From: Sulfurovum sp.
GTDB lineage: Bacteria; Campylobacterota; Campylobacteria; Campylobacterales; Sulfurovaceae
NCBI GenBank assembly: GCA_027082955.1
Contig: JALWTA010000038.1
Coordinates: forward strand, 60,338-124,337
DNA length: 64,000 bases
Reading direction: 5' to 3'
The position numbers and the translations under genes were made by a program. Shown here piece after piece: positions 3,896 to 63,645 of this stretch. Every line of letters begins with the position of its first letter. The stretch's first letter is position 1. The notes under the pieces are model-generated. The model saw only the letters and a program-made list of their open reading frames with translations, was not told the origin of the DNA and searched no databases.

Positions 3896-4998
3896 CCAAT
3901 CACCTCTGAGAAGTGCTTAAAGAAGATATCGTTTTGCCGTGCCGTTCCTACTGTGATTCGTACAGCATTCATGCCATAAGATGCCAAATTTCGGATAATG
4001 ACACCGCGTTTTAGCAGTGCATCAGAAATAGCAGTCGAATCCATATCTTCAGGGAAGAGGTAGGTAATAAAGTTGGTATAGCTGTCAATATAGTCAAACC
4101 CGTTCTCTTTAGCAAAAGCTTCATAACGCTTAATCTGCTGCTGATGCAGTGCTACGGAATCACGTACAAAAGTTTCATCTTTTGCCGCTGTGATCGCAGC
4201 AGCAAGCGAGAGTGTCGTAATGTTAAACGGCGGTCGCATCTTGTAAAGCTGACTGATGATCTGCGGCTGGGCTATCCCGTACCCCACACGCATACCGCCA
4301 AGTCCGTACGCCTTGGAGAAGGTACCAAGATAGATCACATGCTCATACCCGATCAAATCTGCTGGGGTAATTGCCATCGCAGCATCTTTAGCAGCGGCAT
4401 ACTCCATATAGGCACCATCCACTACCACCAGCGTATCCCGATCAACCGCTTCAATGATACGCAGCACCTCCTCTTTGGGCGTAGCATCTCCGGTAGGGTT
4501 GTTTGGTGTGCAGATATAGACGATCTTTGGATGGTACATTTTGTACGCCTCCATAAACTCGTCGTATTTGTGTGCGTAGCTTGCCGTACGGTAGATCTTC
4601 GCTCCCATCTGCTTGGCGTAGATCTCATACATCGCAAAGGTAACAGCGCTCATCAAGACCGATTCGGTCTCATTGAGCAGTGCTCTGGAGATAAACTCCA
4701 GCACCTGATCACTCCCCGCACCGATAATGATGTTTCCCTCATCCACATCAAACTTCTGTGCAAGTGCCTCTTTGAGTTCAAACATGCTGTCATCAGGGTA
4801 AAGATGTGCTTTTTCGGCATGGTTGCGGATTGTCTCTGCTACTGCAGGAGAAGTACCGATGGGGTTTTCGTTAGAAGCGAGTTTGACCACATCTTCAGGC
4901 TTCACTCCAAACTCCCGTACTACCAATTCAATGGGCTTACCCGCTTCATAGGTTTTAATACCATCTAATACTTTGTTAAATCTCATCCAAATCCCCAA
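3892..4998 (-). CDS. hisC: Histidinol-phosphate aminotransferase
   Basis: [33 protein letters not shown]. Confidence 0.95.
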
Positions 4999-5028
4999 TT
5001 TTAACTTTTAATTTCTAATTTTTAATTC

Positions 5029-6087
5029 TTAAATGTCGTCCGTCTCTTTCACATACGAACCAAGCACTTTGATCGACTCTTTGTGTTTGTCAATGATCAC
5101 ACTGATCTTCGGATCATCCTTGTGTCCGTTAAATTCAATGAAGAAGATAGAGACCCCTTCTACAATGTGTGATTTGATCTTTGTCAGGTTGATGTTAGCC
5201 GCTTCAAAATCGTTCAAAAACTCTACCAGAGATCCCGGTTTGTTCGGCAGTCTGACAAGCAGAGAAGTTTTATCGTTGCCGCTTGGTGCATTCTCGAAAT
5301 CACTGATAACAAAGAACCGGGTTCTGTTGTTTTGGTTATCTTCTATATTTTCAAAGAGCACCGGAAGATTGTAGATTTTCGCGGCAACCGCCGAACAGAT
5401 AGCTGCGCTCTCCGGGTCTTCTGCCGCCATCTTGGCTGCCTTTGCCGTAGACTCGACCGGAATCTGCTCCACCTCATCAAACCCAAAATCATTCAAAAAG
5501 TTCTGACACTGTCCAAAAGCGATATCTTTGGAGTAGATACGCTTGATATCCCCTATCTTATCGGCACGTGTCGCCAGTACATGGTGTATCTCCACCACCA
5601 CTTCGGCAATGATCTTCAGATCATAGTCGTTCAGACAGCTGATCGTATCGCTGACAATTCCGTTGGAACTGTTTTCAATGGGAACAACACCAAACTTCGC
5701 TTTTTTGCTGCTTACTTCCCTAAAAACACCCTTGATCGTTGCCACAGGATAGTAGGTGCTCATCGCACCGAACTTGCTCTCTGCCGCCTGATGGGTAAAG
5801 CTCGCTTCAGGTCCAAGGTAGGCAACTGCTTCAGGACGCTCAAGATTTCGCGCAACGGCAAAGAGTTCCAAAAAGAGCGCATCAATCGCCTCATCGGTCA
5901 ACTTGCCATCATTTTGTGCTTTGAGGCGCTGCAAGATCGCCTGTTCGCGTTCCGGGCGGTAAATGGGGGCACCCGTGGTATTTTTCAGCTCTCCTACCTG
6001 ATGCACAAGCTCCATACGCTCATTATAGAGCTTGAGCAGGGTATCATCGATATGATCGATCTTCTCTCTGAGGGCATCCAGTGTCAT
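5029..6087 (-). CDS. pheA: Chorismate mutase / prephenate dehydratase
   Basis: N-terminal CM domain, YLGPEASFTHQAA, NNRTRFFVI, ACT domain. Confidence 0.95.
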   Translation of the reverse strand: MTLDALREKIDHIDDTLLKLYNERMELVHQVGELKNTTGAPIYRPEREQAILQRLKAQNDGKLTDEAIDALFLELFAVARNLERPEAVAYLGPEASFTHQAAESKFGAMSTYYPVATIKGVFREVSSKKAKFGVVPIENSSNGIVSDTISCLNDYDLKIIAEVVVEIHHVLATRADKIGDIKRIYSKDIAFGQCQNFLNDFGFDEVEQIPVESTAKAAKMAAEDPESAAICSAVAAKIYNLPVLFENIEDNQNNRTRFFVISDFENAPSGNDKTSLLVRLPNKPGSLVEFLNDFEAANINLTKIKSHIVEGVSIFFIEFNGHKDDPKISVIIDKHKESIKVLGSYVKETDDI

Positions 6088-6105
6088 TACCGCCTCCTTT
6101 CTTTT

Positions 6106-7314
6106 TTATTGCAGGAACTCTTTTTCAAGACGTACCTGGTCTTCATAGGTCTCACGCCGTCTTATCAGTCTGTCTGTACCGCCTTGAAGTGCGACTTCAG
6201 CCGGTTTTGGACGGGTGTTGTAGTTGCTTGCCATGGTAAAACCGTAAGCTCCGGCAGAGTGCACCACAACAATGTCACCGTGTGATAGCGGCGGCAGAGC
6301 AACATTCTTCCCAAAGAAGTCACCGCTCTCACATACTGGTCCGACAACATCCGCCTCACTCTTTTCCCCTTCAACACCCGGTGCTTCTATTTTATGGTAA
6401 GCGTTGTAGAGGCTTGGACGGATCAGGTCATTCATTGCCCCGTCCACGATCACAAAACGTTTTCCACTATTGACCTTTTCATAAAGTACTTTCGTAAAAA
6501 ATGCTCCGGCATTGGCAACCATATAACGCCCCGGTTCACACATCAGTGTCACATCAAGCCCTTTGGTCGCCTCGGCAATGGCATCAACATACGCCTGCTC
6601 CGCTATGGGTGTCTCATCATCATAGACCACACCTATCCCGCCGCCGACATCAAAAAATTTGATATCGATCTTGATCGCTTTGAGTGACCGTACCAGATCG
6701 GCAACGATCATGGCTGACTCTCTGATGGGGTCAAGATTGGTCAGCTGAGAACCGATGTGAAAGTGGATGCCTACCGGGTTGAGATACTCCGACTTGTTTG
6801 CATAGATATACATCCGTTTTGCCATATCGAGTTCGACACCAAATTTGTTCTCGTGCAGTCCTGTCGAGATGTACGGATGGGTCTGTGGGTCGATGTTGGG
6901 GTTGACACGAATAGAGATGCGCGCCTCTTTGCCAAGCTTTTTGGCAACCAGTTCGACACGTTTCATCTCCGCTTCGCTCTCAAGGTTAAGCATCAAAATA
7001 TCTCTTTTGAGTGCCTCTTCTATCTCGTCATCGCGTTTCCCGACACCGGAGAAGATGATCTTATACTTGTCCACACCGGCATCGAGCGCACGGTACACCT
7101 CTCCAATGCTCACACAGTCTGCCCCCGCACCCAGCTTTGCAAGGTGCTGAATGACCGAAAGGTTTGAGTTTGCTTTAACCGCATAGTTGATGAGTGATTT
7201 TTTACCGGCAAACGCCTCTTTGAGTGTCATATAGCGATTTTCTATATAGTCAAAATCATACATATACAGCGGTGAGCCGTATTTTTCCACCAGTGCTTTA
7301 TAATCTATTGACAT
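6106..7314 (-). CDS. lysA: Diaminopimelate decarboxylase
   Basis: PLYMYDFDYIENRY, YAVKANSN, GAYGFTMASNYNTRPKPAEV. Confidence 0.96.
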   Translation of the reverse strand: MSIDYKALVEKYGSPLYMYDFDYIENRYMTLKEAFAGKKSLINYAVKANSNLSVIQHLAKLGAGADCVSIGEVYRALDAGVDKYKIIFSGVGKRDDEIEEALKRDILMLNLESEAEMKRVELVAKKLGKEARISIRVNPNIDPQTHPYISTGLHENKFGVELDMAKRMYIYANKSEYLNPVGIHFHIGSQLTNLDPIRESAMIVADLVRSLKAIKIDIKFFDVGGGIGVVYDDETPIAEQAYVDAIAEATKGLDVTLMCEPGRYMVANAGAFFTKVLYEKVNSGKRFVIVDGAMNDLIRPSLYNAYHKIEAPGVEGEKSEADVVGPVCESGDFFGKNVALPPLSHGDIVVVHSAGAYGFTMASNYNTRPKPAEVALQGGTDRLIRRRETYEDQVRLEKEFLQ

Positions 7315-46754: not shown

Positions 46755-47119
46755 GGGGGTGACTTGGTTTCGACTGGAGCAGTCGGGGCTATGTGCATGT
46801 CGGACTGGGCAATTCCGTTACGCGGCCCAACGCGAATAAACGCAAACAATACAGATTATCGTCCAGCTTACGCTGTAGCGTAAGTTTAACCAACTTTGGA
46901 CTGCCCTGCCGGTGAGTGTCATCTTAGCCGGATCTTTGGGTATCATATCTGATGACTATATCTTGCAGAAGCCATGCTGCAAGACGAACCTTCTGGCTGG
47001 CTTGGTGTAGTTTTGGGTGTGGTACGAAACCAAGCGAGATATAACAACACCGACTAAGCATGTAGAGTCATAGTTCTAGCTGTTTCAGGACACGGGTTCA
47101 ATTCCCGTCACCTCCACCA
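46755..47119 (+). ncRNA. ssrA: tmRNA; tag ANNTDYRPAYAVA (46842-46883)
   Basis: GGGGGTGACTTGGTTTCGACTGG 5' end, tag ORF, GGTTCAATTCCCGTCACCTCCACCA 3' end. Confidence 0.97.
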
Positions 47120-47319
47120 TTGGCTACCAAAAGTAACACTTCATAAAAAATCATTAAAAATCACTATCCTTTGCAAATATCGGTAATACCGTGCTTTCAA
47201 GCATATCACAACATATCATTACTCATCACTGAAAATCGTAGCACCTCACATCAAGTGGTACACAGAGTGGTACACACTTGCTATACTTTCCATATAACAA
47301 AAAAGAGGTGTGTACCACT

Positions 47320-48576
47320 ATGAATTTATCAGATAGTAAAATCAAAAACACAAAACCGGGCAAAAAGATCATTCATCTAAATGACGGTGACGGACTATGG
47401 ATGGAGGTAAGACCGGTAGGCTCAAAGCTTTGGCGGTACCGTTTTACATTCGAGGGCAAACGCACCCGCCTAAGCCTCGGCGAATACCCCGCCGTAAGCC
47501 TTAAATCGGCAAGAGAAAAAAGGGATGCTTTAAAATCCCTCATCGCCCAGGGCATCGATCCACGCACAGTAAAAGAGGTACCAAAGGAAGAGAAGCAAAA
47601 CTTTGTCAGCTTTGGCGATATGGTCGAAAAATACTTGGAGCATTATAGGGCTGAACGCAATGAAAAGTATTGGCAAGGGGTAGAGAGTCTTTTTAGGCGT
47701 GATGTGCTGCCGGTCATCGGCAAGCTGCCTATTGAAGAGATCAACTCCAAACAGATCGTTACCATCGTGCAAGCCGTCCAGGGGCGTGGTGCTGTAGAGT
47801 CTGCAAAACGGCTGTTTACCCAAATAAGCAAGGTATTCAAGTTTGCCATTGCCCACGGAGAATGCACCCGTAATCCTTGTGGCGACATAGAGCGGTCAAT
47901 GGTACTGCAAAAACCCACCGGCAGAAACTACCCTACCATTACAGATCCCAAAGAAATCGGTAAGCTGATGTATGACATCGATCATTATACCGGATGGTAT
48001 ATGGTACGCTTCGGGCTTCTCTTTTTGGCGTACAGTGCGATCCGTCCTGGAAATGTACGGTTAGCGGAATGGAGTGAGATAGACTGGGATAAGAAGCAAT
48101 GGATCATACCGGCAGAAAAAATGAAAACCGGCAAAGAGCATATTGTACCGCTCTCACGCCAAATGCTTGAGATCTTGAAGTTTGCCAAACATTACGCCAC
48201 CGGTGGAAAGTATATCTTTTTCTCCAACCGGCATAAAAACTCCCCGATGAGTGATGTCACCTTTTCCAAAGCTTTATGGCGGATGGGTTATGGTAACGAT
48301 ACCATCGTACCGCACGGCTTTAGGGCGATGTTTAGCACCATTGCCAATGAACACAGCGAATATGGCTTTGAAGTGATCGAAACCCAACTTGCCCACAGGA
48401 TAGGCTCCAAAGTCGCTCAGGCATACAACCGGGCACAATATCTACCGCAGCGTAAAAAGATGATGCAATGGTGGGCGGATTGGCTGGATGAGCAGAAATC
48501 ACATAGAGAAATAGAGCTCAACAACCTTGACAAGGTTATCAAATATGATAATCTATCCTATGAATTGGACGATTGA
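47320..48576 (+). CDS. Tyrosine recombinase / integrase (P4-like, DUF4102)
   Basis: GDGLWMEVRPVGSKLWRYRFTFEGKRTRLSLGEYP; C-terminal HGFRAMFST...AHRIGSKVAQAYNRAQY. Confidence 0.95.
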   Translation: MNLSDSKIKNTKPGKKIIHLNDGDGLWMEVRPVGSKLWRYRFTFEGKRTRLSLGEYPAVSLKSAREKRDALKSLIAQGIDPRTVKEVPKEEKQNFVSFGDMVEKYLEHYRAERNEKYWQGVESLFRRDVLPVIGKLPIEEINSKQIVTIVQAVQGRGAVESAKRLFTQISKVFKFAIAHGECTRNPCGDIERSMVLQKPTGRNYPTITDPKEIGKLMYDIDHYTGWYMVRFGLLFLAYSAIRPGNVRLAEWSEIDWDKKQWIIPAEKMKTGKEHIVPLSRQMLEILKFAKHYATGGKYIFFSNRHKNSPMSDVTFSKALWRMGYGNDTIVPHGFRAMFSTIANEHSEYGFEVIETQLAHRIGSKVAQAYNRAQYLPQRKKMMQWWADWLDEQKSHREIELNNLDKVIKYDNLSYELDD

Positions 48577-49274: not shown

Positions 49275-50210
49275 CTATATCATTTCGATAGTATCCAAAT
49301 AACATTTCGCAACCTCAATATTTACCGGCTTCTGTTTAACCGCTTGTATCAGTTTTGGGTTTAGGTTTTTAGCAGAGAGTTCATCGCGTATTTCCCTGTC
49401 ACTCCTCCCCTCAAAGGCTACATCTGTTTTCGCACATGAATCCGCCAGGAAGAGTACCCCTACCTCTATTTTATACGCTTCGAAAGAGGGTAATGCACTA
49501 TAGACCGCCTCTTTGAAAGCATCGGAATTGGCAAATGCTACACTGTACCCGTGCTTTGATTTTTTACCGATCTCCCGTATAAACCCAAGTTCAAAATGGT
49601 ATCTGGCACACATAGCGACATACTCTATCTGCCTGTCAGTCAATCCATAGCGGTCATGCAACAGCACATAGAGATCGTTTTGTATGATCTGCTGCGAATA
49701 GATTTCATGCCGGTTAAAAGTATAGACAACCCGCATATTCAAAACTTTGCTGTAGTTCTTGCAAAATTTGCCGATATCATGGAGCAGTATCCCCAGATAG
49801 ATCAGTTTGCCTTTGGGGATGCCGTCGATCGTGTCTGAAAAGTGTGCCTCTATCTCTGCCAGCTTGCCCCATGCCTGAAGATAGGCTTTGACCTCATTGT
49901 CATACATGCGCATAAAGTTTTTGGTATGAGTGACGATACCCCACTGATGCCAGTTTGGCTGATGCTGCTGCGGTGAATCGAGGGCTTCGAGAAACTTCTC
50001 TTTGTGCTGACGGATGAGTGTGTCTTTTTCATTTTTTATCTCATGCAATACTACGGAATGGGCGATATTCTCCAAGTTTCTATCGATCTCTGCAATAATC
50101 ATATCAATATCTACCGCTGTGTTATAGAAGGTTGGTAATGGCATCTTTTTTTTATGCCACTCCTCATCACTCATAAAGGTTTTGCTTTTGAGTGTTTTAT
50201 TCTCTTCCAT
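49275..50210 (-). CDS. HD-domain protein
   Basis: LGILLHDIGKFCKNYS and downstream H residues. Confidence 0.7.
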   Translation of the reverse strand: MEENKTLKSKTFMSDEEWHKKKMPLPTFYNTAVDIDMIIAEIDRNLENIAHSVVLHEIKNEKDTLIRQHKEKFLEALDSPQQHQPNWHQWGIVTHTKNFMRMYDNEVKAYLQAWGKLAEIEAHFSDTIDGIPKGKLIYLGILLHDIGKFCKNYSKVLNMRVVYTFNRHEIYSQQIIQNDLYVLLHDRYGLTDRQIEYVAMCARYHFELGFIREIGKKSKHGYSVAFANSDAFKEAVYSALPSFEAYKIEVGVLFLADSCAKTDVAFEGRSDREIRDELSAKNLNPKLIQAVKQKPVNIEVAKCYLDTIEMI

Positions 50211-50712: not shown

Positions 50713-51978
50713 TTAACGCCCTCGATCCCTCTCCCTCTCCAGCTGCCGCCGCTTAAAGAACTCTTTAGCAGTCTCTTTGGAGTGCTGCTTCGCCGGCTGC
50801 TGCGGAGAGGATCTCTGTGCGCTCTTAGCGTCTACCATTTCAACCTCTTCCTTGGTATTAATTGTATATTTAGTATTGCGCCCCGCACTCCCCTCAACCT
50901 GCTTTAACAGTCCATACTCCACGAGCTTGGAGATATCTCTCTTTGCCGTAGGAATGGAGGTTTTGGCAATGGCAGCATACTTTTTGGTATTCAACCCTCC
51001 GTCAAATTCCGCTGCACCTACATCAAGTACTTTATTAAGTACTTTAATTTGCCTTTCATTGAGTACATATGCCCTTGCCCGATCCCAAAATTTCGCTTTT
51101 TGTACTACCTTTTCGATCTCACCCATCGCATACTCAATCGATCGGTTCACCGTAGCAGTATGCCAACCTATCCACTCGGAAAAATCAAAGTTTCTATTGT
51201 GTATGAGGTTGTTTGACCGCTCCAAGATATCATAATAGGCTCTTTTATGTTCCGCTATCGTCTTTGATATAGAGAAGTATTGATGTGTCAACCCCAACTC
51301 TTTGGAGAGCACATAGTTTGTGATCGCTCTTGCCATTCTGCCGTTACCGTCATCATAGGGGTGAATGGCAACAAACCATAAGTGTGCAATCGCGCTTTTG
51401 ATATAAGGGTCTTCCTGAGAATGGTTGATATAGGCAAGCAGTTCATCCATCTGCTTTTCAATCTTTTGAGGCGGTGGAGCTTCATAATGTACTGTTTCCC
51501 GATATCCCCTATTGGAAACCACCTGCATCTCATCACTGCGATAGGTTGCCACATCTATCTTGTATCCTCCGCTGTAACCGGTAGGAAAGAGTGCATTATG
51601 CCATCCGTGTAGTCGTTCTTTGGATAAAGGGGCATGATTAAAACTGCTGTCGATCAGAATATCCGCCAAACCGTCCGTGTGTCGTGTGGAACGATCCTCT
51701 TCATATGCAAACGCATCATCAAGCTTTTTTCTTATGGAAGATCTTACGCTGTCACGATTGAGGATCTCTCCTTCTATCTTGGAGGATTGCATGATCTCAT
51801 CCGTAGAAGCATCGATGATCACATCACGGATATTTTTTTGATCAAGAATGTGGATCGCATACTCCAGTTTCCCGGTGTTGCGTGATACCGTAGATAACTT
51901 GGGTGCTATCGCTTCATAATGGTAGTCAAATGAGGGATATGCTTCATGTTGCCATACCCATTTTTTATGCTTTTTCAT
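50713..51978 (-). CDS. Fic-family protein (DUF4172 + Fic) with relaxase-identical C-terminal tail
   Basis: HPYDDGNGRMARAITN; inhibitory motif SSKIEGE; last 44 aa identical to the relaxase. Confidence 0.93.
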   Translation of the reverse strand: MKKHKKWVWQHEAYPSFDYHYEAIAPKLSTVSRNTGKLEYAIHILDQKNIRDVIIDASTDEIMQSSKIEGEILNRDSVRSSIRKKLDDAFAYEEDRSTRHTDGLADILIDSSFNHAPLSKERLHGWHNALFPTGYSGGYKIDVATYRSDEMQVVSNRGYRETVHYEAPPPQKIEKQMDELLAYINHSQEDPYIKSAIAHLWFVAIHPYDDGNGRMARAITNYVLSKELGLTHQYFSISKTIAEHKRAYYDILERSNNLIHNRNFDFSEWIGWHTATVNRSIEYAMGEIEKVVQKAKFWDRARAYVLNERQIKVLNKVLDVGAAEFDGGLNTKKYAAIAKTSIPTAKRDISKLVEYGLLKQVEGSAGRNTKYTINTKEEVEMVDAKSAQRSSPQQPAKQHSKETAKEFFKRRQLERERDRGR

Positions 51979-52039
51979 ATAGTTTGGCTCCCAATGATCC
52001 GATTAAAGTAGTTAATCCTATCATAATATGAGCCGATTG

Positions 52040-55000
52040 TCAACGCCCTCGATCCCTCTCCCTCTCCAGCTGCCGCCGCTTAAAGAACTCTTTAGCAGTC
52101 TCTTTGGAGTGCTGCTTCGCCGGCTGCTGCGGAGAGGATCTCTGTGCGCTCTTAGCGTCTACCATCTCAACCTCTTTGCCTTTATGCTGCTTCATAAACT
52201 GCTTAAAGCTCTCCTTGATCCCTACTCTTCTTCCATCATCATGACGATTGCTATCTCTCTCCCGTCGCACGCTTTGATCGGATCGTCTCCCTCTTGCCAT
52301 ACGATCAGATACATCTGTTTGCAGTAGCATTTTAGGGTGGAATTGGTCGCGTGCCATATCGACGCGGGACAATCCATGCACGCGGTTTTGACCTTTTCTA
52401 AGTGATCGTCCTTGAGTACGCGTAATGTCGGACTGAAGTGCTCCGACTCTTGCAAGCCGTCTTGCATCTTCTCTTCGTCTAGTATCATGTGCTTTACTTT
52501 GGGTTTGCCGTATAGTGGATGTTCTTCCATGTGTGTGTCTCCTTTGCTCTTTAAGTTTGGCTACCGCTTTTTCGTAGTAGCTGTTTCGGCGTATCGCCTG
52601 CACGGTACGCTCTCTTAGCACTCTAGCTAATTGTTGCCCTCTGCCTTTAATTCTTCGTCCAGTTCGTGTAAGAACTGTTCGAGTAGCCCGTAGAATCCGA
52701 GAGTCGTTTTGTTGATCTCTAACATCTCTGTTTTCTGCTGCACCTGCTCTCTTTGTATCTCTGCCAAGAGATTTTTGATCTCCTGTAGCTCTTTGAGTAT
52801 CTGATCGTTCATGTGTTTTTTCTCCTTTTTCTTTGATTCGGATCGTGTAATCCAAGGTACTTTTATCCTCGATCTCTTTACCGATGTTGGCTTTGAGCTG
52901 CTCCAGGTTGTCGGTATAGAGTGTGATATCCTGCTTAGCCCTGGTGATCTGTGTATAGAATGAATTGAAGTTCGCCATATCGGACTTAGCCAGGATCATC
53001 ACGCTCTTAGTTGTGACACCCTGCGCCTTTACATCGGTAATAGCGTAGCCGTGATCGATATAGTTCATCTTGTGGATATTGAAACGCTTGCCCGTATCCG
53101 TTACAATATCACCCTTTTTATTGATAGACTTGATCACGGCACGCTCTCCGTTGCGGACTCTTACATTTGTTTTTTTCGAGATCTTTCTATTCTTGTTGAA
53201 TACGATCACATCGCCTTTCTCAAAGCTCTTTTGCGTCCGCCGGTAGACCTGGAGAGAGCTGCCGTGATCGTACACATTTAAAATCTTCTCTTTAGATCTT
53301 CGATCTTTCCCTGACACTAAGATCCGCTTATCATCGAGGATCTCTTTGATCTCCAGCTGCTCACCTTTTTTGAAGCCCTTGATCTTGCCGTCTATGACGA
53401 CATGATAACCCTGTTTATACTCCTGCGTATAGTGTGCAGATATCCCCTGCAAACTGACATTCTCATAGACTTCATAGCTGCGCCCGCCCTTGCCCAGCTT
53501 CTCCCTGATCCGGTCATTGATCGCGCGTCTGTCCTTATTGGTCGATGAGATGATCAGTGTCTCTTTTTGCCGTTTTTTGGAGAGATTGGCAAAGGTACCG
53601 GAGATCTTCTCCCGCAGATCATCCGTGCTATTCTCGATGATCTTATCCCTGCTTTGCAGCACATTGATAGACTTTTCTACCTCCCTGCTCTTTAGCAAAG
53701 AGACACTCTCTTTGGTGTAGTCGCTCTCCTGTCGTAAGACCTCGTTCATGTGTACCGTTTTAATACCGTACTTCTGCATATCGGCAAAGGCTCTGCCCGC
53801 AGCGATAGATTTAAACTGCTTCGTATCCCCGATAAAGACCACTTTATCGCCTTTGGCTTTGGCATTTTCAATGATCTCGTTCATCTGAAATGAGCCGATC
53901 ATCCCCGCCTCATCCACGATCAAAACTCTGTTTCTCTCATCCCTGCCGGCATCTTTCAAAAGAAAAGAGTGGACGGTTTCACTCTTGATGCCCGACTCTT
54001 TTTCCAGTCCGTCCGAAGCCTTGCCGGTATAGGAAATTCCTCTGATTTTCTGATCCGGGAAGTGCTGCTCCAGGAACTCTTTAACTGCTTTGGCAGCATA
54101 AGTTTTACCGGTACCTGCATCACCCTGAATAGCTATAAACTGATCCTCATTGCCCAGGATAAACCGCACCATTTTATCCTGACCGGCTGTCATATTGGAG
54201 TAGTTTTTCTCCAAAAATTCATTGATTCTTTCACCCTCATACGGCTCAAAAACCATCCCTTTTCCTCTGTTTTCATGGATAGAAAAGATGATATTTTTCT
54301 CCGCTTTTATCATTTTTTCGGTAGAAAAAACATTCTTATCCAGCTGAAAAAGATCGGCTCTTTTGGCTACAAAAGGCTGATAAATCTCCTCTGAATATCC
54401 ATACTCCAGACCATATTTGAGCAGCTCTTTATAGAGATCCTCACGGGTAAAAACGGATTGTTTTTCGGTCAAATTCTCTAAGGATCTATCGATATGATCC
54501 TGTATCAAAGGCTCTAAAATAACTACCTTTTTCTCATGATCATCAAGCTTTTCTATCATCGATTTATCAATATTTACAGACTCCATACGCTGTAAATTTT
54601 GCTTTCTGACCGCCTCACGATCTATCTCTTTTTTGGCTTTTTTTGTGTCTTTTACAATGACTTGAAGCAGCTCATTTTCATCCATATTCGGATATTTTTC
54701 ACGGTATTTTGGCAACACTTCCCGGATCAATTTCGAGCGATTTGAGAACTCTTCGAGCTGATTTTTCTCAAATCCGGCGATCTCAAAAAAGCCGTTTTTT
54801 CGATCCGAAACCTCGATTTCATAGCCCAAATTCTTTAGATTTTTTGCCAATTCTGAGCGGTAAACCTGCCCCAAATACATCTTATTTTGGTAGATTTCCT
54901 CATTGGAAAGTGCCAGATTTCTAACGATATTTTTCTCTTTGTCATGGTAAAAAACAGTAGAAAAAATGAAGTTATGAGAGTGCAGCTGCGGATCAATCTG

Positions 55001-55480
55001 ACCCATTACCTCCCTTGAAATATCATGCTGAAAAGTACCGTAAACGATCTCTGCATTGACTCGATATTGATCTCCGTTAATGTTGTAAATTCTCGTTTTC
55101 GCATACTCGTTTTCAAGCTTTTTCATAGCAGTTTTGACTGCCAAATCATGTGCATTTCTGATCTCAAATGCCTTAGAATTTTCCTGATTTCCCTCATGAA
55201 ATTCCATCAAAACTGAGACACTTTTTGGGGCTGAAAATGTCACATCCATACCCGCTCTTCTCTCTGCATTTCCAGCATTGATTACCAATGCTTCACCCGT
55301 AATCGGGTGATAGCCATTGAGTAATTTTTCGTACATTTCAGGGGTGATCTCCAGCCCCTCTTGGAGTCCTAAAACTTCAAGACCCTTGCCGTAAAAATAT
55401 CCTTTCTCGGAATTTTTCTGATAGTAATTTTCTTTGGTAAGGTACCCTTGAGCCTGGGCAACGGATTGAGGTTTACTCAT
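52040..55480 (-). CDS. MobF-type relaxase/helicase (TrwC/TraI-like)
   Basis: GMDVTFSAPKSVSVL, HSHNFIF, GDAGTGKTYAAKAVKEF. Confidence 0.95.
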   Translation of the reverse strand: MSKPQSVAQAQGYLTKENYYQKNSEKGYFYGKGLEVLGLQEGLEITPEMYEKLLNGYHPITGEALVINAGNAERRAGMDVTFSAPKSVSVLMEFHEGNQENSKAFEIRNAHDLAVKTAMKKLENEYAKTRIYNINGDQYRVNAEIVYGTFQHDISREVMGQIDPQLHSHNFIFSTVFYHDKEKNIVRNLALSNEEIYQNKMYLGQVYRSELAKNLKNLGYEIEVSDRKNGFFEIAGFEKNQLEEFSNRSKLIREVLPKYREKYPNMDENELLQVIVKDTKKAKKEIDREAVRKQNLQRMESVNIDKSMIEKLDDHEKKVVILEPLIQDHIDRSLENLTEKQSVFTREDLYKELLKYGLEYGYSEEIYQPFVAKRADLFQLDKNVFSTEKMIKAEKNIIFSIHENRGKGMVFEPYEGERINEFLEKNYSNMTAGQDKMVRFILGNEDQFIAIQGDAGTGKTYAAKAVKEFLEQHFPDQKIRGISYTGKASDGLEKESGIKSETVHSFLLKDAGRDERNRVLIVDEAGMIGSFQMNEIIENAKAKGDKVVFIGDTKQFKSIAAGRAFADMQKYGIKTVHMNEVLRQESDYTKESVSLLKSREVEKSINVLQSRDKIIENSTDDLREKISGTFANLSKKRQKETLIISSTNKDRRAINDRIREKLGKGGRSYEVYENVSLQGISAHYTQEYKQGYHVVIDGKIKGFKKGEQLEIKEILDDKRILVSGKDRRSKEKILNVYDHGSSLQVYRRTQKSFEKGDVIVFNKNRKISKKTNVRVRNGERAVIKSINKKGDIVTDTGKRFNIHKMNYIDHGYAITDVKAQGVTTKSVMILAKSDMANFNSFYTQITRAKQDITLYTDNLEQLKANIGKEIEDKSTLDYTIRIKEKGEKTHERSDTQRATGDQKSLGRDTKRAGAAENRDVRDQQNDSRILRATRTVLTRTGRRIKGRGQQLARVLRERTVQAIRRNSYYEKAVAKLKEQRRHTHGRTSTIRQTQSKAHDTRRREDARRLARVGALQSDITRTQGRSLRKGQNRVHGLSRVDMARDQFHPKMLLQTDVSDRMARGRRSDQSVRRERDSNRHDDGRRVGIKESFKQFMKQHKGKEVEMVDAKSAQRSSPQQPAKQHSKETAKEFFKRRQLERERDRGR
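52222..52530 (-). CDS. Alternate-frame nested ORF with Cys-rich domain
   Basis: 102 aa, CMDCPASIWHATNSTLKCYCKQM; SD AAAGGAGA 8-9 nt upstream of ATG. Confidence 0.6.
   Translation of the reverse strand: MEEHPLYGKPKVKHMILDEEKMQDGLQESEHFSPTLRVLKDDHLEKVKTACMDCPASIWHATNSTLKCYCKQMYLIVWQEGDDPIKACDGREIAIVMMMEEE
52627..52812 (-). CDS. Alternate-frame nested ORF, coiled-coil
   Basis: MNDQILKELQEIKNLLAEIQREQVQQKTEML...; SD AAAGGAG upstream. Confidence 0.6.
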   Translation of the reverse strand: MNDQILKELQEIKNLLAEIQREQVQQKTEMLEINKTTLGFYGLLEQFLHELDEELKAEGNN

Positions 55481-55499
55481 ACTGACCATGACCGGTAAA

Positions 55500-56025: not shown

Positions 56026-56910
56026 TCAATCCTTGCCTCTGTAAAATCTTCTTTGCTCTCTGCGGTCTTTCCAGTTTCTGTATGCTCTAAAGGGTGCAGA
56101 TGCTTGAGCACCGGCTGAACCCGGAAGATGCTCGATCGATGCACCTGCCAACTGCTGTGCAATTTCTCTAGCCATCAAAACTGCCAAGCCCAAAAAAATT
56201 GTAAGAATTGCTATCTCAACACTTTGTGCAAACATATTTGATGACACCTGAGCCTTTGCCGTATCGATCACCTGCCGATAGCTTCCATCCAAAGCGTTCA
56301 AAAATACACCGACTATTAAAACGGTCAGGGTATTTGCAATGATCAGTTTCATCCAGTTTGAAAAGATCTCTTTGAACCAGCTGTATAAACTGCTGTAGAT
56401 CATAATAGGCGAGATCATGATCAGGACTTTAAGCATGAGTGTTGTGCTTGCCATGATCCATACGGTCAATACAGAGAAGACGACAAACCCAGCCATGAGA
56501 ATAATGGCAGATGTATACCCCTCTATCGGCACCATAGAGCGATCCATGTCTATCATTCTTACCGAAACATCAAAAGTCTTTTTCAGGAGTTCATCCATTC
56601 TTGCAAAAAGTGATGTGCTTCCGCTTGCCCAGGAGTTCATCCCGTCTATTGCATCGGATATCAGTTGAATCCATGCAGGATTAAACACGACTGCCACCAC
56701 AGCCATCTTGAGTGCTGCATCAAAGATGAGACCTTTGAGCGGATCTTCGCTCTTTCCTGCAAGGATCAAATACCCCCGGAACATCACCCAAGCGACGATA
56801 TATGCGTAGATGATATCTTCAAGTGCATTTACCTGTGGCTGCACCGCTGCGGCTGTAAGATGAGAAACAAGTACATTGATTTTTTCCTCGATCAGTTTGA
56901 AAATCATCAT
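56026..56910 (-). CDS. TrbL/VirB6-family inner-membrane T4SS protein
   Basis: Multiple TM; GLIFDAALKMAVVAVVFNP; neighbours TrbJ/VirB5 and EexN-like. Confidence 0.85.
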   Translation of the reverse strand: MMIFKLIEEKINVLVSHLTAAAVQPQVNALEDIIYAYIVAWVMFRGYLILAGKSEDPLKGLIFDAALKMAVVAVVFNPAWIQLISDAIDGMNSWASGSTSLFARMDELLKKTFDVSVRMIDMDRSMVPIEGYTSAIILMAGFVVFSVLTVWIMASTTLMLKVLIMISPIMIYSSLYSWFKEIFSNWMKLIIANTLTVLIVGVFLNALDGSYRQVIDTAKAQVSSNMFAQSVEIAILTIFLGLAVLMAREIAQQLAGASIEHLPGSAGAQASAPFRAYRNWKDRREQRRFYRGKD

Positions 56911-57178: not shown

Positions 57179-57892
57179 TCAGTTCCCCCAATTTGTGTAT
57201 TTATGGCGATTGGATCTCATGATCTGCTCGCTTTGTCTACGATCAACCCGCGCTTTGGATCTGTTCTGTGCTTCCATCATTTCAACCTGGGTCTTGATGA
57301 TCTCCAGCTGTGCCAGCTGCATCTGAATAGCGTTGGCAACATCGGCGGACTGTTTGATATCTTCACTGTGCGCTCTTTTGTCGGAGAGCTGCTGCAAATT
57401 CTGCATGATCCGCTTGAGCTTCTGTGTTGTGTGTTGGTAGGTGGCGATCTCCTGCACATTCCGTACCATTTCACTTTTGCAGATCCTCTTTTGATCGTCG
57501 TTCATGTAGTCGTAGTTACAATCATCAAAAAGATTGTATTGATCAAACAGCTGCTTTGCATAAGCACCGATCTGAGACCTGGGATGATCTACAATGTCGT
57601 TGGTAAGATCCATGAAGTCCAGGGAGTAGTTATCCATAAACTCCATGAGCTGCTGCATCTCCTGTTGGAATGAGATAATATCTCTGATCCCTGTTTTTGC
57701 AAGCAGTTCATCACGGTAGTTTTGGATTGTGTGTCTCCAGCGTTCCGCCTGCTTCGCGTACTCCGCTACCGCTTTGGCTGTCTGTGTCGGATCAAAGACG
57801 ATATCGCCTGCTCCAAATATTGCAAAGGATGAAGTAGTCATTACAGATACCGCAGCGATTGAGATTCCGATTTTTTTGAGTGTGTGTGTCAT
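57179..57892 (-). CDS. VirB5/TrbJ-like T4SS protein
   Basis: Signal peptide; FGAGDIVFDPTQTAKAVAEYAKQAERW. Confidence 0.85.
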   Translation of the reverse strand: MTHTLKKIGISIAAVSVMTTSSFAIFGAGDIVFDPTQTAKAVAEYAKQAERWRHTIQNYRDELLAKTGIRDIISFQQEMQQLMEFMDNYSLDFMDLTNDIVDHPRSQIGAYAKQLFDQYNLFDDCNYDYMNDDQKRICKSEMVRNVQEIATYQHTTQKLKRIMQNLQQLSDKRAHSEDIKQSADVANAIQMQLAQLEIIKTQVEMMEAQNRSKARVDRRQSEQIMRSNRHKYTNWGN

Positions 57893-58656: not shown

Positions 58657-59493
58657 CTATGCAGACTTTTGCTTTTGATGAATCCACAGATAAAGATCCT
58701 TTTTGGCATAGCCGTAGTCATCCGTACCGTCATCGAAAAAGAGATGCAGGTGGCTGCCGACATCTACCACACGGTTGATTTGCTTATTTCCCAGTGAATA
58801 CCCGACTAACTGCGTATAGTCAAACTCCTCTATCTTCTTTTTCGCCTCTTCCTTTTCTTTTTGATCGAGATATTCGGATCTCCAGGTTAAAAAAGCAGAT
58901 TGGGCATCACTGTTACCTGCACGGATTCTCTTACGCATACTTGCTTTGTATGCCGGTGGATTTTTTGCGGATGAGGAGTAATCATCAAGCCATTTTGAAA
59001 AAAGCGGATCGTTTTCTATCTCTGTCTCTGTGTCTATCTCTAACTCTATCTCTTTCTCTGTGTCTGTCTCTATAGGACTTTTTTTGGACAATTTTGGACA
59101 ATGTCCAATTTCACTGTTTTGTTTACTTTTTTCTCTTTGTTCTCTTTTAATTTGTGCCCATTTGGTTTCGCTTCCTATCATATTTTGAGTTTCCACCATA
59201 AACAAAGTGCCATCATCCCATTTCTCCATCAGACCTAAACTGAGAAATAAATCCACACCTACTTTAACCGTGTCAATATTTGTTCCTGTTATACTTGCAA
59301 GCATTTTAGGAGAGTAAGGAATAGTGTCTCGAAAGTAAAGCTTTCCTTCCGTTTTTACGCTCTTTAACAAAAGCTTTAAATAAAAGTTTATATAGTCAGC
59401 TCCATTATCCATATCTTCTATAATCTTAATTTCATCACGATCATAAAAATCATCTTTTAATTTCAGCCAATAATACCGTTTCTCTTTTGCCAT
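58657..59493 (-). CDS. Phage replisome organizer-like replication protein
   Basis: KEKRYYWLKLKDDFYDRDEIKIIEDMDNGADYINFYLKLLL. Confidence 0.8.
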   Translation of the reverse strand: MAKEKRYYWLKLKDDFYDRDEIKIIEDMDNGADYINFYLKLLLKSVKTEGKLYFRDTIPYSPKMLASITGTNIDTVKVGVDLFLSLGLMEKWDDGTLFMVETQNMIGSETKWAQIKREQREKSKQNSEIGHCPKLSKKSPIETDTEKEIELEIDTETEIENDPLFSKWLDDYSSSAKNPPAYKASMRKRIRAGNSDAQSAFLTWRSEYLDQKEKEEAKKKIEEFDYTQLVGYSLGNKQINRVVDVGSHLHLFFDDGTDDYGYAKKDLYLWIHQKQKSA

Positions 59494-59503
59494 GCCAAAC
59501 CCC

Positions 59504-59722
59504 TTAGTTTTCATCTGCGAGGACACGGGCAAGATCCGGCACCGGGAAAAGTACTCGTCTCCGTTCCTTTTTTGCTACCTTTGCAAGATCGCAGCCTCTT
59601 TTTAATTGCCGATCCAAAGTTGGGATAGATAACCCCAGCAATGTGCAAACCTCTTTTTTACCGACATAGAGCCTTCCGGGGTACATCTCCATGATCATCT
59701 CTTTTGCTTCTTGATATGTCAC
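59504..59722 (-). CDS. AlpA/MerR-like HTH protein
   Basis: YVGKKEVCTLLGLSIPTLDRQLKRG. Confidence 0.7.
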   Translation of the reverse strand: MTYQEAKEMIMEMYPGRLYVGKKEVCTLLGLSIPTLDRQLKRGCDLAKVAKKERRRVLFPVPDLARVLADEN

Positions 59723-61248: not shown

Positions 61249-61467
61249 ATGGTTCAAAAGATGGAGCTTGATATCGAAACTATTTTTGAAGAGCTGCACA
61301 CTATTGAAATGGATGACAATACCAAAGAACTATTGCAAAATGGTGTGCCTGCCTATATCAAAGAGCCGGGGATGGCAAACGGTTTTATGATCAAACTCTA
61401 TCCCAACGGAACCAAAGAGACAGTACATATAGACGCATCTTTTAACGAAACGGTTGTAAACCTCTAA
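61249..61467 (+). CDS. Small putative antitoxin upstream of zeta-like ATPase
   Basis: 72-aa ORF separated from the next CDS by 3 bp. Confidence 0.6.
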   Translation: MVQKMELDIETIFEELHTIEMDDNTKELLQNGVPAYIKEPGMANGFMIKLYPNGTKETVHIDASFNETVVNL

Positions 61468-61470
61468 GCT

Positions 61471-62100
61471 ATGGCACAAAAACTTTTCATCCTTGCCGGT
61501 CCAAACGGATCGGGCAAATCTACTCTCTACAGAAAACTCATAGGAAAATACAAAGCTCTCAAAAAACTCCCCTTTGTAAATCCTGACGATATCGCCAAAG
61601 AGATCTTCGGAGATTTTTTACCCGACGGCTCCAAAGAGAGCAATCAAAAGATGCTACATGCAGGGAAAGAAGCGATAAAAAGGCGCAAACAGTTTTTAGA
61701 AGACGGCATAAGCTTTGGTGTGGAAACCACTTTTTCCGGCAATAGCGAAAAACAGCTCATAAATGATGCCATTGCAAAAGGCTATGATCTTTACATTGTC
61801 TATGTTGCGCTTAGCGATCCTTTGCTCAATGTGCAAAGAGTGCGTGCGAGAGTGCAAAACAAAGGTCACTTCGTTGATCCTGCTATTATTGTAAGACGCT
61901 ATCACAAAAGTATTCAGCAAATTGCCGAAGTTGCAGCACAAACAAAAGCTCTCTATCTGTTTGACAATTCACAAACACACTATAAGCGTATTGCATCACT
62001 TCGAAGATCCGGCGCAAGAGGAGAGCAAAATATCATACTCAACACTCCCTTACCTGAATGGTCAAAAGAGATTATTTCCAACATCATTCAATCCCACTAA
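61471..62100 (+). CDS. Zeta-toxin-like P-loop protein
   Basis: LAGPNGSGKSTLYRKLI, FGVETTFSGNSEKQLINDA. Confidence 0.85.
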   Translation: MAQKLFILAGPNGSGKSTLYRKLIGKYKALKKLPFVNPDDIAKEIFGDFLPDGSKESNQKMLHAGKEAIKRRKQFLEDGISFGVETTFSGNSEKQLINDAIAKGYDLYIVYVALSDPLLNVQRVRARVQNKGHFVDPAIIVRRYHKSIQQIAEVAAQTKALYLFDNSQTHYKRIASLRRSGARGEQNIILNTPLPEWSKEIISNIIQSH

Positions 62101-62409
62101 TGGGAATTGAACCCGGTTCCCAAATCCATGTGGTACACGAATCGGTACACGCTAAGAGGCTAATAACCACAAAGCACGCTATATCGATATAGTTCGGTAG
62201 CCGTCACCTCCACCAATACCTCATCTAAACAAATCCACACAAACCCATAAAAAGCCCTAAAATACGAGCTTTAAGGCACATTTCTAATACATACTGATAT
62301 AATCGGATATACACAAATCTACATTTTTTAGGGGCTACATTGGGGGCTTTTGCAAAAATAAGCCCCCAACCCTCTTTTGGAAAGCCCCTAAAATTTTAAA
62401 GGGTATTGC

Positions 62410-63645
62410 ATGGCACGGAGAACAGCACCTTTAACCGCCACAGAGATCAAGGCGGCAAAGCCCAAAGAGAGAGCCTACAAGCTTTTTGACGGCGGCGGGC
62501 TTTATCTGCTGGTAGCCAAAAGCGGCGGTAAGCTTTGGTACCTAAAATACCGCTTCAACGGCAAAGAGAAAAAAATCGCTTTGGGGGCTTACCCGACAGT
62601 ATCGCTTAGTGACGCACGGAAAAAGCGGGAAGAGTTTAAAAAGATGATCGCCGAGGGGATAGACCCCTCCGAAGAGAGGAAAGCCCAAAAAGAGCAGATC
62701 AAGATAGAAGAGGTCAAGAAAACCAATACCTTTTACACCATAAGCCAAAAGTGGCTTGAGAGCTACAAAGACCAGGTATCAGAGAATTATCATACCCGAC
62801 TGGGCAGAGCCTTGAAAAACTATATTTACCCCACTATCAAAGAGAAGCCTATCGATGAGGTGACCCGGCTGGAGATCATAGCCATACTGGAAGAGCTTAA
62901 AGCAAAAGGGCTACATGAGACCGCACGGCGTACCGTTACGCTGCTAAACAAAGTCTTTAAGTATGCGGTAACCCACGAATACACCCCGCATAACATCATA
63001 GCCGACATTGAGACCAAAGAGATCATAGGCAAAAAGGTAAAACGCCACTACCCTACCCTTACCAAGCCCAAAGAGATCAAGGGGCTGTTACTTGCCATAG
63101 ATGACTATACCGGCGACTACTTCACCAAGATGGCGTTAAAGATGCTGCCCTATGTGTTTGTCCGTAGCTACAACATCCGGCACATGGAATGGGAAGAGAT
63201 AGACTTCAAAGCCAAAGAGTGGCAGATCCCCGCTGCAAAGATGAAAACCAAAGAGCCGTTTACCCTCCCGTTACCTCATCAGGTCATTACACTGCTAAAA
63301 GAGGTCAGAGAGAACAGCCTAAGCACTAAATATGTGTTTCCCAGCTTCAGAAGCGATGGCAAACCGTTAAGCGATAACACCCTCATATCTGCCCTGCGAC
63401 GGATGGGCTATACAAAAGAGGACTTTGTGCCGCACAGCTTTAGAGCGATGTTCAGCACCATAGCCCACGAATACGCCAACCGCAAAGACGGACACGACAA
63501 ATCCGAAAAGGTCATAGAGGCGTGTTTGGCACACAAAGAGCGCAACAAGATCAAGGAAGCCTACAACCGGGCAGAATACAAAGAGCCGATGCGGGAGCTT
63601 GTGCAGTGGTATGCGGATTGGCTGGATGGGGTGAAGAATGGATAA
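62410..63645 (+). CDS. Second P4-like integrase (DUF4102)
   Basis: LTATEIKAAKPKERAYKLFDGGGLYLLVAKSGGKLWYLKYRF; HSFRAMFST. Confidence 0.95.
   Translation: MARRTAPLTATEIKAAKPKERAYKLFDGGGLYLLVAKSGGKLWYLKYRFNGKEKKIALGAYPTVSLSDARKKREEFKKMIAEGIDPSEERKAQKEQIKIEEVKKTNTFYTISQKWLESYKDQVSENYHTRLGRALKNYIYPTIKEKPIDEVTRLEIIAILEELKAKGLHETARRTVTLLNKVFKYAVTHEYTPHNIIADIETKEIIGKKVKRHYPTLTKPKEIKGLLLAIDDYTGDYFTKMALKMLPYVFVRSYNIRHMEWEEIDFKAKEWQIPAAKMKTKEPFTLPLPHQVITLLKEVRENSLSTKYVFPSFRSDGKPLSDNTLISALRRMGYTKEDFVPHSFRAMFSTIAHEYANRKDGHDKSEKVIEACLAHKERNKIKEAYNRAEYKEPMRELVQWYADWLDGVKNG

Follow-up and report, generated by a model that had tools for sequence, protein, structure and literature searches.

A C-terminal tail shared by a Fic protein and the MobF relaxase of a Sulfurovum element, and its probable role as a type IV secretion tag

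Proteins translocated by type IV secretion systems (T4SSs) are selected through signals, most of them described as short C-termini that are positively charged (PMC5675462); a C-terminal positive-charge signal is likewise cited for the Agrobacterium substrates (PMC8406263). Signals of this kind may be found on enzymes of the Fic family. VbhT, encoded by the Bartonella plasmid pVbh, is a translocated FicT protein with a relaxase-derived BID as its signal, almost the same as the signal found on the TraA relaxase; its authors expected further toxins with short signals (PMC5675462). The Fic1-Fic4 proteins of Campylobacter fetus are encoded near T4SS loci, and their KEKE C-termini were proposed, without a test, as translocation signals (PMC5651007). 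Here we describe a 15.1-kb integrated element of Sulfurovum sp., in which a Fic gene and the adjacent gene encoding a MobF relaxase end with the same sequence. The element is found in a stretch of 64,000 nucleotides (contig JALWTA010000038.1 of the assembly GCA_027082955.1, positions 60,338 to 124,337), hereafter called the window. Positions are those of the window, and the main features are listed in Table 1.

The last 44 residues of the Fic protein and of the relaxase are the same (44/44), and both proteins end EVEMVDAKSAQRSSPQQPAKQHSKETAKEFFKRRQLERERDRGR. The corresponding DNA is a direct repeat of 135 nt, 99% identical (50715-50849 = 52042-52176). Counted back from the 3' ends, the two genes share 123 nt of coding sequence ahead of their stop codons, and the run of identity reaches 124 bp once the first T common to both stops, TAA in the Fic gene and TGA in the relaxase gene, is counted in. 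The first mismatch beyond, GAA/GAG, is synonymous, and 10 more identical nt follow. Outside the tail the two ORFs, separated by a gap of 61 bp, are unrelated (Pfam DUF4172 and Fic in one, TrwC and AAA_30 in the other), and the repeat ends both in the same frame and terminal register. No further copies of the tail were found in the source genome, nor was the tail found in 397 other sampled Campylobacterota genomes or among PLSDB plasmids; its exact DNA was not found in IMG/VR, and searching the tail against Pfam and NCBIfam revealed neither BID nor other domains. A flexible structure is expected for it. Weak matches in the genomes G181 and G369 lie in an alternative frame of unrelated genes, and were discarded as fortuitous. 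Because a 135-nt, 99% identical repeat closes two unrelated ORFs in register, and the tail is otherwise missing from the genome, the repeat is not due to chance. The original prediction, made from the sequence of the window, had reported the identical tail, the 124-bp identity with its synonymous mismatch, the differing stops, the spacing and the unrelatedness of the remaining sequences, and all were borne out by the comparison. Only the end coordinate given there, 52176, has to be amended: this marks where the relaxase's repeat copy stops, the gene itself spanning positions 52040-55489.

As in VbhT, a Fic enzyme with a C-terminal relaxase signal would be encoded by a mobile element and formed by terminal reassortment (PMC5675462). 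The differences are equally marked. The signal would be a tail of 44 residues, which matches nothing in Pfam and lacks a BID domain; the Fic protein is of the DUF4172/class II type, with the inhibitory motif in cis, and is not part of a FicTA pair; the relaxase is of the MobF/TrwC type, and no coupling protein was detected. Transfer was shown for VbhT, and is predicted here. The C. fetus proteins, too, are Campylobacterota Fic proteins from the vicinity of T4SS genes, and a C-terminal motif of theirs was put forward as a signal. That study, however, compared the motif between one Fic protein and another, and nowhere uses the word relaxase (PMC5651007), whereas the window tail is identical to that of the relaxase, and similar sharing involves non-Fic proteins.

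The origin of the tail can be traced by comparison with a sister genome (G489), where the same element, locus L290, is enclosed by the same pair of 15-bp repeats. The two elements are 94% identical at the DNA level, and L290 lacks the Fic gene. The L290 relaxase (1151 aa) has the same 44-residue tail, followed by a TAA stop, and the sequence found 3' of it is the one found 3' of the Fic gene in the window. About 55 other Campylobacterota homologues of the Fic protein stop 0-17 residues past the Fic body, and within this set the 44-residue extension is peculiar to the window Fic. Since the relaxase of the Fic-less sister has the tail, and the Fic homologues end without it, the comparison identifies the tail as the relaxase's own, copied onto Fic. 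The fusion occurred in frame at the natural end of Fic, the whole of which is kept, essentially just the stop being replaced. The tail codons of the sister relaxases differ by 2 synonymous and 0 nonsynonymous changes. Both window copies carry the two synonymous states unlike L290, and copy B, the one on Fic, has one further change. For dating the duplication, local divergence is low (of the last 149 codons 7 are changed) and there is no outgroup; Fic may have been gained in the window element or lost in L290 by recombination between the repeats. Relaxase tails are themselves subject to turnover, as none of this kind is found on the L057 relaxase, by best segment (56%) the closest outside the sister pair. 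The two elements differ also for another cargo gene: a DUF676 esterase-like gene (540 aa, L290:7198-8820) is located between the integrase and the HD-domain gene of L290, and the window has no long ORF there.

C-termini were similarly compared inside MobF loci of other genomes, partner classes being assigned with Pfam. Among 413 pairs of a relaxase with a protein of its own locus, 4 had terminal-anchored tail scores of at least 44 (those of the window, L038, L082 and L053), versus 0 of 14,218 cross-locus pairs (Fisher 6e-7). Several top cross-locus scores match a relaxase to the tailed cargo of other elements, and the control is thus conservative at lower thresholds. Pairs not including the relaxase reached the same score in 2 cases among 2,951, both formed by a primase and a protein of 574/576 aa. 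In L038, from a Campylobacteraceae metagenome-assembled genome, tails are alike on the relaxase (KEFENTLLRDLRAAN...) and on ArdC (REFESTLLKDLRAAN...). In L082, from an Arcobacteraceae metagenome-assembled genome, TQSHSISR closes both relaxase and primase. In L053, L054 and L197, all from one genus, probably Sulfurimonas, a tail of the type [VI][TS]xEDLxxA...R is common to the relaxase, a 572-576-aa protein and a Toprim primase, and in L197 extends to ArdC; its clarity varies, being weakest on the L054 and L197 relaxases, and the [VIMF][TS]xEDLxxA-type motif was defined after the tails had been inspected. A weaker match links the relaxases of L293 and L294, loci from the same family as the window, to adjoining proteins of 156 and 120 aa, respectively; in L293 the gene for the 156-aa protein precedes the coupling-protein gene. 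The tailed 572-576-aa protein (L053:6127-7845, L054:6252-7976, L197:10675-12405) belongs to no known Pfam family; in L082 the Toprim primase (4872-6920) is joined to its N-terminal part. Toprim primases are fused into the relaxase or into a relaxase-like ORF in four loci (L038:8591-12745, L051:8653-12609, L052:8887-13401, L199:7582-11352), and are separate and provided with a relaxase-like tail in L053, L054, L082 and L197. The separate primase of L198 has no evident tail of this sort, and those of L044 and L083 are doubtful.

Arg is the final residue of 21 of the 25 Campylobacterota MobF relaxases left after removal of near-duplicates, versus 32 of 287 other ORFs (11%), a count including the putative cargo; in other phyla it closes 12 of 38 MobF relaxases. 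Additional arginine-ended ORFs of MobF loci, as L045:2777-4405 (QQQQDQDRSR) and L072:6339-7370 (ETTQQQEISR), are possible further cargo. When the codons of the other tail pairs are compared, third-position changes predominate in several; the segments were picked for protein similarity, and the pattern is only suggestive. A PLSDB search with the L082 primase gave no matches. The original prediction advised a search for the tail on other domains; relaxase-tail sharing is found on primases, ArdC and other proteins of related elements. The objection that the tail might be restricted to this strain by a recent gene conversion holds for half of the picture, as the fusion to Fic is found in one genome and may be recent, but tail sharing is wider. 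Shared relaxase/cargo C-termini were not found in the literature, subscription papers being outside the search, and this is a weak sign of novelty.

Toprim primases and ArdC-N plus metalloprotease proteins, the classes to which the tailed primases and ArdC belong, were already linked to conjugative elements, and it was proposed that they reach the recipient together with DNA (PMC5512222, PMC7213743). R388 ArdC is reported to need expression in the recipient, not in the donor (PMC5512222, PMC7213743). Polyvalent proteins join such activities in one polypeptide, whereas in the loci described here separate proteins carry the relaxase's tail.

In our opinion the tail is probably a C-terminal address tag for a T4SS, specific to the element, and Fic would be a cargo that the tag delivers to the recipient. 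The 44 residues would be the C-terminal signal by which the MobF relaxase of the element is recognised, and a copy of this signal would have been fused in frame onto a stand-alone, self-inhibited class II-type Fic AMP-transferase. The same coupling protein, probably that of a helper conjugative element, would recognise both relaxase and Fic; the latter would enter the recipient together with the transferred DNA or alongside it, and would modify there a target, favouring the establishment of the element. The function of the tag as T4SS signal, the translocation of Fic and its action in the recipient are all steps that we infer from sequence data. A translocation signal is suggested because tails sit on primase and ArdC, classes for which entry into the recipient along with DNA is expected, or is reported from related systems (PMC5512222; PMC5675462); together with the primase fusions and the terminal Arg, these points are circumstantial. 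Campylobacterota MobF elements would generally have an arginine-ended, element-specific tag on the relaxase and on proteins accompanying the DNA. We lean, by a narrow measure, towards the notion that these elements run such address tags, and that primase, ArdC, other proteins and an AMP-transferase were recruited by copying them. It is about as plausible, as part of the same proposal, that in the window an element that is itself a mobilizable hitchhiker has acquired a tagged Fic protein as its weapon.

Several observations weigh against the address tag. The fusion of Fic to the tail is found in one genome only, and the tail copies are 99% identical in their DNA, which makes selection on the Fic copy unmeasurable. 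A coupling protein was not found in the source genome, and the machine reading the tag is hypothetical. Tails of different elements have different sequences and charges (net +5 in the window, about 0 in L053 and L054), and consequently are not one conserved signal. Fic proteins of this type also appear among anti-phage systems (SoFic model), a role which needs no translocation. In non-Campylobacterota MobF loci no clear excess of tail sharing was seen, top scores resulting from low-complexity K/E tracts. On the whole, the earlier claim that a relaxase tail was copied onto Fic as a T4SS signal gains support from the Fic-less sister, the tailless Fic homologues and the recurrence of tail sharing. 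The accompanying claim that the toxin travels with the element must allow for the undetected coupling protein, as a helper T4SS would read the tag.

The strongest rival is a donor-side role of Fic in defence, because PADLOC matches the protein to SoFic (1.2e-44), and Sofic is an AMPylation protein reported in abortive infection (PMC12249575). The Fic protein matches Pfam DUF4172 (4.6e-22) and Fic (3.3e-19), and its nearest solved structure is PDB 8cil_A (7.9e-80, residues 6-374). The motif SSKIEG, N-terminal to the Fic core (residues 117-224), fits the class II inhibitory consensus (S/T)xxxE(G/N) (PMC5651007), as originally predicted, and by its sequence the protein has a class II layout, with the inhibitory motif in cis. 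The window Fic and Sofic would be of the same broad type by profile match (PMC12249575; PADLOC SoFic), but the NCBIfam SoFic score (61.8 bits, cut-off 550) is under the equivalog level, and no relaxase tail is noted for Sofic in the available part of the source. No Fic relatives were found in IMG/VR. According to this alternative, the recombination placing Fic by the relaxase accidentally duplicated 135 bp, the tail is a neutral read-through and Fic is a defence protein or toxin of the donor. The single substitution between the tail copies, the occurrence of the fusion in one genome, and the many contexts in which other, tailless Fic homologues occur are all in line with an accident, as is a promoter-like site of Fic's own. 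This sigma-70-like sequence (TTGACA-17-TAGGAT, 52043-52015) begins where the relaxase tail meets the leader; it is a consensus match only, and matches in the region are no more numerous than the shuffled expectation. An accident accounts poorly, however, for a fusion that is in frame, falls where Fic naturally ends and costs it essentially just the stop, and for similar tail matches recurring in other elements, with diverged DNA, on classes known or proposed to be transferred; we regard it as unlikely.

Less probable still is that shared tails are docking or relaxosome-assembly modules, binding the relaxase complex, oriT or a common donor partner, with Fic tethered to the relaxosome. Tails are found on several proteins acting on the transferred DNA, as primase and ArdC, and these could meet at the relaxosome. 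Yet a tail that binds the relaxase complex does not have to be identical on the two partners; when several proteins bear like labels, a third party acting as their common receptor, such as the coupling protein, fits better, and recognition of relaxase signals by the coupling protein is the described mode (PMC8406263). That Fic is a captured addiction or toxin-antitoxin gene stabilising the element, its activity or stability and not its localisation being altered by the tail, is very improbable in spite of the class II-type inhibitory motif, the zeta-toxin gene on the same element, suggestive of stabilisation functions, and the toxin-antitoxin networks formed by C. fetus Fic genes near T4SS genes (PMC5651007), as it leaves unexplained why the tail is the relaxase's own.

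The element carrying the tailed Fic has an integrase, flanking att repeats and its own MobF relaxase, as integrative mobilizable elements (IMEs) do. It comprises a tyrosine integrase gene, an HD-domain gene, a 97-aa ORF, Fic, relaxase, VirB6-like gene, lipoprotein-like ORF, VirB5-like gene, replication gene, HTH_17 gene and zeta-toxin gene. The lipoprotein-like ORF is a possible VirB7, judging from position and signal-like N-terminus. No coupling protein was detectable in the source genome (G000; assembly 95.6% complete, 48 contigs) and in the sister G489, PF10412 giving only weak ATPase matches; in 5 of 5 comparison genomes bearing comparable elements the same model scored 1e-19 or better. 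The VirB4 model TIGR00929 misses also 4 of these 5 genomes, and the absence of VirB4 is not claimable. Because the element has its own relaxase and VirB5/VirB6-like genes, but the coupling protein was not detected, it is probably mobilizable rather than self-transmissible. In this it would resemble SGI1, an integrated, non-self-transmissible IME with its own homologues of mating-pore genes, the traN, traH and traG of which replace helper subunits (PMC5389848). The window element differs in having VirB5/VirB6-like genes and in sitting in a tmRNA gene, and by analogy these genes possibly remodel the mating pore of a helper. The HD-domain protein (49275-50210) is weakly similar to Cas3 HD nucleases, and is kept in the sister element. 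The zeta-toxin-like kinase (61471-62100) is encoded close to attR, and a 72-aa ORF before it (61249-61467) could be the antitoxin. A second tyrosine integrase gene (62410-63645) starts directly past the attR-like repeat, and a second element may sit in tandem at the tmRNA site, running off the contig end.

Table 1. Coordinates of the features of the Sulfurovum element within the window (canonical Fic motif from PMC5651007)
Feature	Position	Strand	Remarks
tmRNA gene	46755-47119		
attL-like 15-bp repeat	47105..47119	(+)	CCGTCACCTCCACCA; 3' end of tmRNA gene
Tyrosine integrase	47278..48576	(+)	Pfam Phage_integrase 3.3e-19, Arm-DNA-bind_3 3.8e-25
Fic gene, 421 aa	50713..51978	(-)	DUF4172, Fic domain, winged-helix-like C-terminal part, 44-aa tail
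Extra unit, 1327 bp	50715..52041	(-)	Leader, Fic body and one tail copy; in window, not in L290
Fic tail codons, copy B	50716..50847	(-)	Residues 378-421, then TAA
Fic catalytic motif	51328..51363	(-)	HPYDDGNGRMAR; Y replaces F of canonical HxFx(D/E)GNGRxxR
Class II-type inhibitory motif SSKIEG	51769..51786	(-)	Residues 65-70
Leader, 61 bp	51979..52039	(-)	Between relaxase stop and Fic start
MobF/TrwC relaxase-helicase, 1149 aa	52040..55489	(-)	Pfam TrwC 3.9e-68, AAA_30 2.6e-45; NCBIfam MobF above cut-off
Relaxase tail codons, copy A	52043..52174	(-)	Residues 1106-1149, then TGA
VirB6/TrbL-like gene	56026..56910	(-)	Pfam TrbL 7.7e-23
Lipoprotein-like small ORF, 94 aa	56907..57191	(-)	Signal-like N-terminus MRHMTLLAVTLLLALTGCG
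VirB5-like gene	57179..57892	(-)	Pfam T4SS 6e-17, NCBIfam VirB5 1.5e-4
Replisome-organiser-like replication gene	58657..59532	(-)	Pfam Phage_rep_org_N 2.3e-25
attR-like copy of the 15 bp	62201..62215	(+)	Bounds 15.1-kb element

The arrangement described is best read, by analogy, as a BID-free parallel of Bartonella VbhT. If this is true, the Fic case would be a second, independent graft of a relaxase signal onto an AMP-transferase, and would have been caught near its origin, thanks to the Fic-less sister. The VbhT paper calls conjugative T4SS signals, which are short, "notoriously difficult to predict" (PMC5675462). If tags are shared, comparing the last 20-45 residues of a relaxase with those of the neighbouring proteins would be a simple finder of conjugatively delivered proteins, toxins included, without need of a known domain such as BID.

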